Shown one piece after another: positions 16,812-20,418 of a stretch of DNA of 40,566 bases. Below the pieces are notes generated by a model. The model saw only the letters and a list, made by a program, of their open reading frames with translations, was not told the origin of the DNA and did no database searches. Each line of letters starts with the position of its first letter. The first letter of the stretch is position 1. A program made the translations under genes and the position numbers. The DNA is from Williamwhitmania sp. (lineage in GTDB: Bacteria; Bacteroidota; Bacteroidia; Bacteroidales; Williamwhitmaniaceae): the NCBI GenBank assembly GCA_035529935.1, contig DATKVT010000029.1, positions 1 through 40,566 on the forward strand, written 5' to 3'.

Positions 16812-17993
16812 CTACATGGTCCAAGCCATTATTGGCGTAACCTTTATTTCATCGCTAAAAATGACCTGAGGCTTTTCGCGTAGGTTGTAGCGCGAGCTCA
16901 TTACCTCACCATAGGCTCCTGCCGAAAGGATGGTGAGCAGGTCACCTCTCGATGCTTTTGGAAGTGCCACGTCGTGGGCAAAGCAATCGGTGCTTTCGCA
17001 CACTGGGCCTACCACATCGTATACCTGCGTGGAATTGTAGGAGCTGAGATTTACAATCTTATGAACTGCATTGTAGAGGGCGGGACGCATAAGGTCGGTC
17101 ATTCCAGCATCAACCACTGCAAACTTTTTCTGCTCGCTACCCTTCACGTAGAGTACCTTGGTAACAAGGCTGCCGCATTGGGCAACAATGGAACGCCCGA
17201 GTTCAAAGTGCACTTTTTGGCCGGGGAGCAAGCGGAGTGTCTTACTAAATGTATTGAAATATCCTTCAAAGTCCGGCATCTCATTCCCTTCTGGGTTTTC
17301 GTAGGAGACCCCTAAGCCGCCACCCACATTGAGGTAGGGCAAAAAACTATTTTTGAAGTAGTTCTCCTGAAGCTGGTTAATCTTCTCCGCAACATGTTGG
17401 AAAATCTCCATTTTAGTTATTTGAGAACCAATGTGTAGGTGAAGACCAATCAGTCGAACGTTGTTTAGCGCGGGCAGAAGGTCAATGGCTTCGTTTAGCT
17501 CCATGGGGGAGAGGCCGAACTTGCTGCTTAGGGTGCCAGTGGTAATATGCAAATGAGTTTCTGCCGAAATGTTGGGATTTACGCGAAGTGCAACAAGTGC
17601 CCTTTTGCCCTGTGAGGCAGCAATTTGGTTGATAACCTTCAGCTCTTCCACCGATTCACAATGGAGGCAGAATATATTCTTCTGTAGCGCGTAGCTTATC
17701 TCCTTGTCGCTTTTACCGACGCCGGCAAAAACAATCTCCTTGGCTGGAAATCCAGCTTCTAGTGCTGCTTTAATCTCATTTCCACTTACGCAATCGGCTC
17801 CAAAACCAAATGATGCAACCTCCCTGAGGATGCGTTCGTTGGCGTTGGCTTTTACCGCATAGTGAACGGTGAAACCTAACGATTTGGTTAGGGTTGAAAC
17901 ATTTAGGAGCGTTCGTCTCAGGAGGTCGACGTCGTATAGGTAAAATGGCGTTGGTAGGCCTTGTAGCGCTTCCGAGGTGCCGAATGGAATCAT
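16812..17993 (-). CDS. lysA: Diaminopimelate decarboxylase
   Basis: 393 residues. The PLP lysine is Lys48 in VHYAVKANAN. HIGSQI, GGGLGVSY, ELGRSIVAQCG and VGPVCESTDCFA are the remaining landmarks of the fold III barrel and the active-site cysteine region. The enzyme converts meso-diaminopimelate to L-lysine, the last step of the pathway that also supplies peptidoglycan. The stop of lysC is 29 bp upstream on the same strand, so the two form an operon with lysC first. Confidence 0.95.
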   Translation of the reverse strand: MIPFGTSEALQGLPTPFYLYDVDLLRRTLLNVSTLTKSLGFTVHYAVKANANERILREVASFGFGADCVSGNEIKAALEAGFPAKEIVFAGVGKSDKEISYALQKNIFCLHCESVEELKVINQIAASQGKRALVALRVNPNISAETHLHITTGTLSSKFGLSPMELNEAIDLLPALNNVRLIGLHLHIGSQITKMEIFQHVAEKINQLQENYFKNSFLPYLNVGGGLGVSYENPEGNEMPDFEGYFNTFSKTLRLLPGQKVHFELGRSIVAQCGSLVTKVLYVKGSEQKKFAVVDAGMTDLMRPALYNAVHKIVNLSSYNSTQVYDVVGPVCESTDCFAHDVALPKASRGDLLTILSAGAYGEVMSSRYNLREKPQVIFSDEIKVTPIMAWTM

Positions 17994-18022: not shown

Positions 18023-19384
18023 CTACGATATTAGCTTAAATCCCTCTATCCGAGGTTGACTCTCCGGTTCCGATTCATTAAGCACCGGTTGTATTAGCTG
18101 AAGGGTCGGTATTTTATGCTCCTCACCTACCAGCAAGGAGATATTGTGGCTGCTTCCACCGTAGGAGATCATACGGATGGGTATATCGTGCAAGGCCTCC
18201 ATAATCTTAAGCGCTGACCCTGGTCTTTCGGCCACAAAATCGCCAACAATACAGATGATGGCCTGCTTAAGATCCACTTCAACTACCGAGAATTGCTCCA
18301 GCTCTGCAACAATCTCCGGAAGCCTCGTATCATTATCGATGGTAAGTGATACGGCAACCTCCGAGGTGGTAATCATATCAACTGAGGTTTTATAGGAGTC
18401 GAACACCTCAAAAACTCTCTTCAGAAATCCGTGGGCCATCAACATTCTGGACGAACGAATCTTAATAGCTGTAATCCCACTCTTGGCGGCCACCGCTTTT
18501 AAGCTGGAAGCCTGGTAGTTGGCCGTGATAAGGGTTCCTGGATTTTCTGGCTCCAGCGTATTTTTCAGCAGTACGGGAATGCCCTTCTTCCTGCAGGGGT
18601 GAATGGTTGCTGGGTGCAGAATCTTTGCCCCAAAGTAGGCAAGTTCTGCTGCTTCGTCAAAGGAGAGGTTGCGGATTGGCTTGGTGTTGCTTACATAGCG
18701 AGGGTCGTTGTTGTGAAAGCCGTCGATGTCGGTCCATATCTGCACCTCCTCTGCATTGATGGCATTACCAATGATGGCAGCCGTATAGTCGCTTCCCCCT
18801 CGCTTGAGGTTGTCGATTTCGCCCTTGGCATTTCTGCAGATAAACCCTTGGGTAATGTATACATCCATCTCCTTGGCCTCCTCCATGAGCCGGGAAATAT
18901 TTTCCGAGATGTAGTACATGTCGGGCTCACCGTCCTTGTCGATGCGCATGTAGCTCAACGATGGCAACAGAACCGAGGGAATTCCCGTCTCCCAGAGGTA
19001 GAGATGGAAAAGGTTGGTGGATATTATCTCACCAATTGAGAGAATAACCTTTTCGAGGGATGGGCCTGTTTCTGTTTCAATAGCATTTATGGCATCATTA
19101 AAAATGAGCGAGATGGTGCGTTTGGCGTTTTTTTGATACTCTTCGGTTTGGTAGAGTTCAGAAATGACCTTTAAATAATTTTCTTGTACCTCTAGAAGTG
19201 AGGTTTGAGCTTTCTCTTTATCGCCCTTGTTAGCCATGTCGGCAATATCCACCAGCATGTTGGTAGTGCCAGCCATGGCAGAGAGAACAACTACAACCTG
19301 CTCTCCAGTGGGAATAATTTTGGTGAGACTTTTCATCCTCTCGGCGCTACCAACCGATGTTCCTCCAAACTTGAGCACTTTCAT
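18023..19384 (-). CDS. lysC: Aspartate kinase
   Basis: 453 residues, typical of a single-function aspartokinase. The N-terminus VLKFGGTSVGS is the kinase signature; GGSDYTAAIIGNAI and WTDIDGFHNNDPR are the active-site and nucleotide-binding blocks. Two ACT-type regulatory domains fill about residues 300-440 (GITAIKIRSSRML, then SVVEVDLKQAIICIVGD), so allosteric control by an end product is expected. It phosphorylates aspartate, the first step towards Lys, Thr, Met, Ile and diaminopimelate. A terminator and a Thr/Lys/Met/Ile-rich leader lie just upstream, arguing for transcription attenuation as well. Confidence 0.95.
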   Translation of the reverse strand: MKVLKFGGTSVGSAERMKSLTKIIPTGEQVVVVLSAMAGTTNMLVDIADMANKGDKEKAQTSLLEVQENYLKVISELYQTEEYQKNAKRTISLIFNDAINAIETETGPSLEKVILSIGEIISTNLFHLYLWETGIPSVLLPSLSYMRIDKDGEPDMYYISENISRLMEEAKEMDVYITQGFICRNAKGEIDNLKRGGSDYTAAIIGNAINAEEVQIWTDIDGFHNNDPRYVSNTKPIRNLSFDEAAELAYFGAKILHPATIHPCRKKGIPVLLKNTLEPENPGTLITANYQASSLKAVAAKSGITAIKIRSSRMLMAHGFLKRVFEVFDSYKTSVDMITTSEVAVSLTIDNDTRLPEIVAELEQFSVVEVDLKQAIICIVGDFVAERPGSALKIMEALHDIPIRMISYGGSSHNISLLVGEEHKIPTLQLIQPVLNESEPESQPRIEGFKLIS

Positions 19385-19409: not shown

Positions 19410-19437
19410 AAAAAAGGCCCGCAGTTTCCTGCAGGCC
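19410..19437 (-). terminator. Intrinsic terminator between leader peptide and lysC (attenuator)
   Basis: Minus-strand RNA: GGCCUGCAG pairs with CUGCGGGCC across a 4-nt loop, nine pairs including one G-U, then six U. It stands 26 bp before the lysC start and after the leader ORF, where a normal terminator would block the operon. It is therefore most simply an attenuator. Confidence 0.85.
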
Positions 19438-19490
19438 CTTGTTTATATGTGGTTTTTTAAATCATTTCACATTTTCATCCAAGCCTGCAG
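19429..19490 (-). promoter_or_regulatory. Putative antiterminator pairing of the lysC attenuator
   Basis: CTGCAGGC in the last leader codons (19483-19490) is the exact complement of GCCTGCAG in the 5' arm of the terminator (19429-19436). Pairing of these 8 bases would break the terminator. CTGCAG is self-complementary, which weakens the argument slightly. An earlier CCGCAG in the leader could pair with the other terminator arm. Confidence 0.55.
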
Positions 19491-19594
19491 ATTTTCGTGC
19501 GCTTCTTTGAATTATACATACCCTTAGTAGTCATACCTGCGGAAGGCATAATTTGATGGGTAATGGTGCGCTTATTTTGTAACTTGGTAATCAT
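19475..19594 (-). CDS. Leader peptide of the lysC-lysA operon (39 aa, Thr/Lys/Met/Ile-rich)
   Basis: An ATG at 19594 with AGGA five bases upstream opens a 39-codon frame ending TGA at 19475. It contains six Thr, six Lys, four Met and four Ile: 20 of 39 residues are end products of the aspartate pathway that lysC begins. Clusters are MTTKGM at residues 21-26 and KKRTK at 30-34. The stop is followed 37 bases later by the intrinsic terminator, and the last codons can pair with that terminator's first arm. This is the layout of a ribosome-mediated attenuator: stalling at scarce Thr or Lys codons would let the antiterminator form. No homologue is recalled, so the call rests on composition, position and RNA pairing. 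Confidence 0.7.
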   Translation of the reverse strand: MITKLQNKRTITHQIMPSAGMTTKGMYNSKKRTKICRLG

Positions 19595-19803
19595 TGTTCC
19601 TGTGAATTAATATGCAATAGTAACTCTTTTTTCTATAATTGGTTCACACCATATATTTTTTTAGTGTTAAATTATTTGAAGATTATTGTAATGATTAGAT
19701 TATTAATGAAATGGTTCATTATGTTTTTTTGTTTTGCAGTATACTATGTGAATTATATTGCAGGTCTATAATTATAATTATGCATAATCAAAATCTCTAG
19801 AAC

Positions 19804-19857: not shown

Positions 19858-20418
19858 TTAGAAACCAATGTTGAAGCCGAGGTTGTATTGCATGTAAGAA
19901 ACCTTACCGCCTTCTACCTTGCCAAGGTTATGGTAACCAACACCAAGGTTGAACCACTTAATCTTAAGACCAAGCTCAAGACCACCACCAAGTTTCGACT
20001 TTGAAACATATTCAGAAATATCGTTGCCAAGCCCATCAGTAGCAATAACGCCAATCTTGGTCATATACATACCGGTCATAACCGCAGCGTAAGGACGAAC
20101 TTTGGTTTCGGTCATGTAGTATACACCCTTTAAAAGGATAGCGCTAATTTTGGTAGCCTTAAAGTCAATATTTGTTCCCATATCACCGAAAGAGGCTCCT
20201 ACCATGGTGGATGAATTGTATTCCAAGCCTGCTGCTAACTTTGAGGTAAAGTTGTAGGTGCAGTTGAGGTAACCATCAACACCACCGCTGGCTATGTCCT
20301 TCAAGTCACCTTGAGGAGAAGCAAAACCACCACCAAAACCAATGTTCCACTTGTTGTCTTGTGCATTTACAGTGAGCACGGTAGCCACAAAAAGTAGCGT
20401 GTAGAGAATTCTTTTCAT
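19858..20418 (-). CDS. Outer-membrane beta-barrel protein
   Basis: 186 residues. Residues 1-19 form a signal peptide cut after VNAQ. The mature part alternates hydrophobic and polar residues with many Gly and aromatic residues (WNIGFGGGFASPQGDL at the start, YNLGFNIGF at the end) and finishes in Phe, the usual outer-membrane barrel signature. This is the OmpW/OmpX-like small barrel type (about eight strands). Function unknown. It is monocistronic, with a -7 element at 20478-20485 and a strong terminator at 19804-19833. Confidence 0.85.
   Translation of the reverse strand: MKRILYTLLFVATVLTVNAQDNKWNIGFGGGFASPQGDLKDIASGGVDGYLNCTYNFTSKLAAGLEYNSSTMVGASFGDMGTNIDFKATKISAILLKGVYYMTETKVRPYAAVMTGMYMTKIGVIATDGLGNDISEYVSKSKLGGGLELGLKIKWFNLGVGYHNLGKVEGGKVSYMQYNLGFNIGF

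Follow-up and report, generated by a model that had tools for sequence, protein, structure and literature searches.

How lysC and lysA are controlled in Williamwhitmania sp. is the question raised by the interval upstream of these genes in the analyzed window (the whole stretch of 40,566 nucleotides, contig DATKVT010000029.1). In Bacillus and E. coli, lysC is controlled by a lysine riboswitch. The first-pass annotation of this DNA had proposed a ribosome-mediated attenuator in front of lysC-lysA, and this proposal is supported by the short frame, its codon bias, the terminator and a complementarity that is kept in relatives. The layout of the element, its conservation and codon bias, pairings that exclude each other and their concerted change between families, all read directly from the sequences, make it very probable that the element is a ribosome-mediated transcription attenuator of lysC-lysA that senses how much charged tRNA is available for Lys and Met, in the window's genus perhaps for Thr as well. 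It comprises the following features, listed in the direction of transcription.

19615..19622, minus strand: putative Bacteroidota-type -7 promoter element TACTATTG, matching the consensus TAnnTTTG at five of six positions.
19598..19601, minus strand: AGGA, Shine-Dalgarno-like, 3 nt 5' of the leader ATG, read directly from the sequence.
19475..19594, minus strand: leader peptide frame, product MITKLQNKRTITHQIMPSAGMTTKGMYNSKKRTKICRLG, with Lys/Met bias; a homologous frame is present in the sister species and similar ones in families f25, f19 and f99.
19481..19490, minus strand: segment 2, CUGCAGGCUU, the last leader codons and 5' strand of the antiterminator; it pairs with segment 3 and is kept in relatives.
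19429..19440, minus strand: segment 3, AAGGGCCUGCAG, common to the antiterminator (with segment 2) and the terminator (with segment 4).
19413..19424, minus strand: segment 4, CUGCGGGCCUUU, 3' arm of the terminator, identified by hairpin energy and a helix that is paired in 18 sequences.
19410..19415, minus strand: run of six U at the end of the intrinsic terminator, evident from the sequence itself.
18023..19384, minus strand: lysC, monofunctional aspartate kinase of 453 aa (Pfam AA_kinase and ACT_9), the proposed regulated gene.
16812..17993, minus strand: lysA, diaminopimelate decarboxylase-like, 393 aa (Pfam Orn_Arg_deC_N and Orn_DAP_Arg_deC).

The best NCBIfam model for the lysC product is lysine-sensitive aspartokinase 3, with 411.6 bits under a cut-off of 455; the protein also matches TIGR00657 (aspartate kinase) over its cut-off. 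lysA follows downstream after a gap of 29 nt, and both genes presumably form one operon.

The leader frame runs from 19594 to 19475 and comprises 39 codons with a UGA stop. As described in the first-pass annotation, AGGA precedes its ATG and 20 of the 39 residues are Thr (six), Lys (six), Met (four) or Ile (four); the frame lies on the minus strand. These four amino acids account for 19 of the 38 non-start residues versus 9.7 expected (P = 0.0005), and Lys and Met alone for nine versus 3.7 (P = 0.0005). Thr occurs six times versus 2.7 expected (P = 0.012), an excess that is absent from the leaders of relatives. Conservation of the frame suggests that it is translated; dN/dS is below one in most pairs, not in all.

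Between this frame and lysC, a nine-pair terminator with a U6 tail had been annotated. Its position and tail were correct, but the hairpin AAGGGCCTGCAG-GAAA-CTGCGGGCCTTT (19440..19413, minus strand) contains 12 pairs including one G-U and has an energy of -21.1 kcal/mol. A search with the hairpin pattern gave one match in the window's genome and one in each of four f25 genomes, all at the lysC locus. The leader end CUGCAGGC (19490..19483) is complementary to the first terminator arm, and the predicted eight-base complementarity proved exact, CTGCAGGC at these positions being the complement of GCCTGCAG in that arm. The pairing of segments 2 and 3 extends to 10 pairs with -18.5 kcal/mol, which is significant against dinucleotide shuffles of the leader segment (P = 0.002).

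To follow this arrangement, we searched for lysC in 60 relatives, in 393 genomes of the order, in three complete families and in 395 genomes of the class, and inspected the sequences upstream of it. The one congener of the window's genome (G000) is the sister species G001; their family is designated f1. G001 harbors the leader MHQLQNKRTTMQAIMQTKRMMTKAMYMWMKREKNCRHGVLS followed by the hairpin GGCCTACAG-GAAA-CTGTAGGCC, and one helix site is changed there in segments 2, 3 and 4 together. In f25 this lysC was found in 16 of 27 genomes, and all 16 contain the frame, the terminator and the complementary leader end; their leaders comprise about 37-47 codons, e.g. MNNRLATCTIKHDIMLKKSMMNKAMYMCKKHHMLCRPGLKD, with GGCCTGCA hairpins. 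In several f19 genomes the leader is Lys-rich (MTGIKQIKQIKHLEKSMGKKRSFNGKP) and the arms are unrelated (AAACCCUGA with UCAGGGUUU), genus g164 of this family not being among those called, and f99 genomes show leaders such as MKKMKKYNKQKKDKTICRALLF with the arms GCCGGGC and GCCCGG. A Bacteroidota-type promoter element, a short frame, an antiterminator segment at the frame end and a terminator precede lysC in G001, in all 16 f25 genomes and in several members of f19 and f99. No such element was found upstream of lysC in most other families of the order, and locus L072 has no good leader. The helix sequences differ from family to family, yet they are internally complementary in each. Alignment with relatives, a check put forward in the first-pass annotation, is thus favorable: short frame, coding bias, terminator and arm complementarity are kept, and the helices change together between families.

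The pairing was also assessed quantitatively. Leader end and arm paired better than in shuffles at P < 0.02 or near in 22 of 26 loci and at P <= 0.03 in 23 of 26; the exceptions, with weak leader/arm pairing, are L032, L068 and L069. When arms were swapped between families, pairing of f1 and f25 leaders decreased from about -15.5 to -16 kcal/mol with their own arms to -7.6 to -8.6 kcal/mol with f19 arms, and that of f19 leaders from -12.1 to between -7.6 and -8.7 kcal/mol with f1/f25 arms. On average, own pairs were 4-9 kcal/mol stronger than swaps between f1/f25 and f19, and f99 leaders were not separated from f25 arms by this test (-13.9 kcal/mol). In an alignment of 18 f1 and f25 sequences, the terminator helix shows 98.8% pairing and two compensatory pairs; for the antiterminator helix these values are 97.6% and one.

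Hairpins followed by U runs are frequent between genes, and short Lys/Ile-rich frames arise by chance in AT-rich DNA. The hairpin might therefore merely terminate the upstream gene or a small RNA, with a frame that arose fortuitously. However, the upstream gene on the same strand (19858-20418, minus, an uncharacterised protein of 186 aa) is followed by a hairpin and U run of its own at about 19838-19804, and thus the terminator at 19440-19410 is not needed for it. The frame, its Met/Lys bias and the complementarity to the terminator moreover recur in four families. An automated rule requiring a terminator, an ATG frame ending near it and leader-end/arm pairing of -11 kcal/mol or better selected 31 of 181 distinct lysC upstream regions, but none of 543 shuffled ones. 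A chance origin is accordingly considered extremely unlikely. Among the 31 regions, L173 and L229 are regarded as tentative and two from Sphingobacterium (L221 and L222) are not counted as support; the latter were set aside as attenuators and are probably terminators of upstream genes.

The first-pass annotation had also suggested folding the RNA both ways, and the outcome was divided. At equilibrium the terminator was preferred in every fold, even with the leader partly masked as by a ribosome, whereas nascent RNA folded as far as the terminator loop adopted the antiterminator. Because equilibrium folds always gave the terminator, the fold of the nascent RNA alone is used as folding support, and the switch would have to be kinetic.

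From these observations we infer the following course of transcription, translation, ribosome stalling and regulation. Transcription would begin shortly upstream of the leader ATG. With ample Lys and Met, the ribosome would reach the leader stop and cover segment 2, leaving segment 3 free to pair with segment 4, and transcription would end at the U tract. If either amino acid runs short, the ribosome would stall ahead of segment 2, in the part of the leader rich in Lys and Met codons; segment 2 could then pair with segment 3 as soon as this is made, the terminator would be pre-empted and lysC-lysA transcribed. In some f25 members segment 2 is located 24-30 nt before the stop, and a ribosome at the stop codon would therefore not cover it directly. 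Most f25 relatives may use an additional segment 1 near the leader start, at about codons 4-8, which can pair with segment 2; transcription would then terminate if the leader is not translated. This protector pairing is weak in the window (P = 0.6). It reaches P < 0.02 in 13 of the 18 f1 and f25 loci, with a mean of -16.5 kcal/mol for own pairs versus -12.1 kcal/mol between groups, and is mixed in f19 and f99.

Which amino acids the leaders read was analyzed in 21 representative leaders with 706 residues. Met occurs 73 times versus 20.5 expected (3.6-fold, z 12) and Lys 128 times versus 77 (1.7-fold, z 9). Thr (42 versus 50 expected) and Ile (60 versus 56) are not enriched. Of the Thr/Lys/Met/Ile signal assumed in the first-pass annotation, Lys and Met were thus retained, while a Thr/Ile signal was rejected; Thr is perhaps an additional input in the window's genus. 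Clear Met enrichment, about four-fold, is restricted to f1 and f25, and the leaders of f19 and f99 are Lys-rich. This composition suggests that f1 and f25 leaders read Met and Lys and those of f19 and f99 Lys.

Instead of reporting on tRNA supply, the leader could encode an arrest peptide or a small protein with a function of its own, in which case its sequence itself would matter. Conservation indeed exceeds composition in f1 (LQNKRT..Q.IM) and in subgroups of f25 (MLKxSMMxKxM in four species), and L173 and L182 have the peptide KQ(I/V)KKxLW in common. Across families, however, only the richness in Lys, or Lys and Met, is shared and not the sequence, and conservation of the last leader residues is explained by segment 2. 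The peptide showed no match to Pfam or NCBIfam, and membership in a protein family was rejected. A further argument comes from other biosynthetic genes of related genomes, whose leaders are built on the same plan and read their own amino acids. hisG is preceded by the His-rich leaders MFLHLHHHHHHFIHAQKAQN, MNNTLHHHHHHCNSSR and, in G001, MTFLTLHLHHSHSGPQAS, and ilvD by Ile/Val-rich leaders (MNNIVIIVISIILVVVVRGAEGL), each with a terminator. We therefore judge a role of the peptide itself very unlikely. In the same survey, up to six consecutive His codons were seen upstream of hisG (L332-L336) and Ile/Val/Leu-rich frames upstream of ilvD (L338-L339), followed by terminators; judging from their sequences, these loci are probably his and ilv attenuators in Bacteroidales. 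Neither leader nor terminator was found upstream of the second aspartate kinase (L276-L278; G000, G001 and G025), which is oriented divergently from a conserved gene whose product has about 340 aa, and no such leader was found in the upstream regions of homoserine dehydrogenase.

For the attenuator of lysC-lysA, the difference in Met codons was compared with the type of homoserine dehydrogenase. Only the monofunctional enzyme occurs in f1 and most f25 genomes, and a fused kinase/homoserine dehydrogenase of 808-834 aa in most of f19 and part of f99. The nearly complete f99 genomes G099 and G283, which are possibly Thr/Met auxotrophs and have kept lysC with a Lys-only leader, yielded no homoserine dehydrogenase. 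A dual-input attenuator whose codons mirror the layout of the aspartate pathway is tentatively proposed. In f1 and most of f25, where no fused enzyme was found and there are only two aspartate kinases, both monofunctional and one of them lysC, Lys and Met might be read. Lys alone might be read in most of f19 and part of f99, with the Thr/Met branch served by the fused enzyme, and in G099 and G283, in which no homoserine dehydrogenase was found. Exceptions are G411 (f25) with both enzyme forms, G421 (f19) with only the monofunctional one and G397 (f25) with no homoserine dehydrogenase. Owing to these exceptions, and to a comparison of four families in which enzyme type is confounded with family, the link between fused enzyme and Met codons is treated as a hypothesis.

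Bacteroidota have unusual promoters and rely little on Shine-Dalgarno sequences. By itself, the 5/6 match of the window's promoter element is weak, as about half of shuffled sequences have one. All 26 leaders, however, show a TAnnTTTG-like element (5/6 or 6/6) located 9-34 nt upstream of the ATG, and it is perfect in 16 of 26 versus 4.8% of shuffled sequences. No perfect match was found in the interval between terminator and lysC at any of these 26 loci. This distribution suggests that transcription starts shortly past the 19615..19622 element and ahead of the leader ATG.

Given the lysine riboswitch that controls lysC in Bacillus and E. coli, a metabolite-binding riboswitch or a T-box could control the terminator, and the frame would then be incidental. 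However, the interval from promoter to terminator is almost wholly a codon-biased reading frame with no conserved aptamer-like core, and neither the window nor five relatives gave an Rfam match at the gathering threshold. Membership in a riboswitch or other Rfam family was rejected on this basis, and such a control is hardly credible here. The lysine riboswitch (L box) resembles the proposed attenuator in controlling lysC via the 5' leader of the mRNA, but it senses free lysine by an aptamer, and no such RNA was found in these six sequences. Closer are thrL, hisL, ilvL, leuL and trpL of Proteobacteria, short frames rich in codons for the pathway product just upstream of a biosynthetic operon, with one arm common to antiterminator and terminator. 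The lysC leader differs from them by its Lys/Met codons in place of those for Thr/Ile, His or other amino acids, by its location on lysC-lysA, by the weak segment 1 in the window and by a Bacteroidota promoter. Its score with the Rfam family Thr_leader (RF00506) is 19.5 bits, under the gathering score of 55.

A search of the open-access literature yielded no description of a Lys- or Met-coded leader or of a leader on lysC. The impression in the first-pass annotation that this leader was new to Bacteroidota therefore holds for the Lys/Met leader of lysC, but not for the mechanism, since 'strong clues' to attenuation by leader peptides ahead of amino-acid operons are reported in Flavobacterium psychrophilum (PMC9723704). 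Phylum and proposed mechanism are the same there, and the article text names no lysC, lysine or threonine. For B. thetaiotaomicron, frames resembling leader peptides are reported in 5' UTRs (PMC7366714). The Lys/Met-coded lysC leader, which has no Rfam family, thus appears to be an undescribed form of a classical switch type, on a gene that is under a riboswitch elsewhere. Together with the His and Ile/Val leaders, it makes ribosome-mediated attenuation a probable regulatory layer in several Bacteroidales families, and it offers a way to test how transcription and translation are coupled in this phylum, whose promoters are unusual.

Two further observations were made upstream of lysC. Another type of leader, e.g. 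MFKQIKKFLWLIMHPEYGSASFLPWSL and MNKQVKKLLWCPMHLDYRSFLSLYVSY, precedes a terminator at L173, L182, L088 and L193; its end is partly complementary, and it is possibly a further variant. In Flavobacterium sp. HSC-61S13 (L199), a Lys-rich leader MMNTWIIKKGKKQYLRRTS is followed by AAAAGGCCTGTC-TTCAC-GACAGGCCTTTT, a sequence arrangement which suggests that the attenuator design extends outside Bacteroidales.
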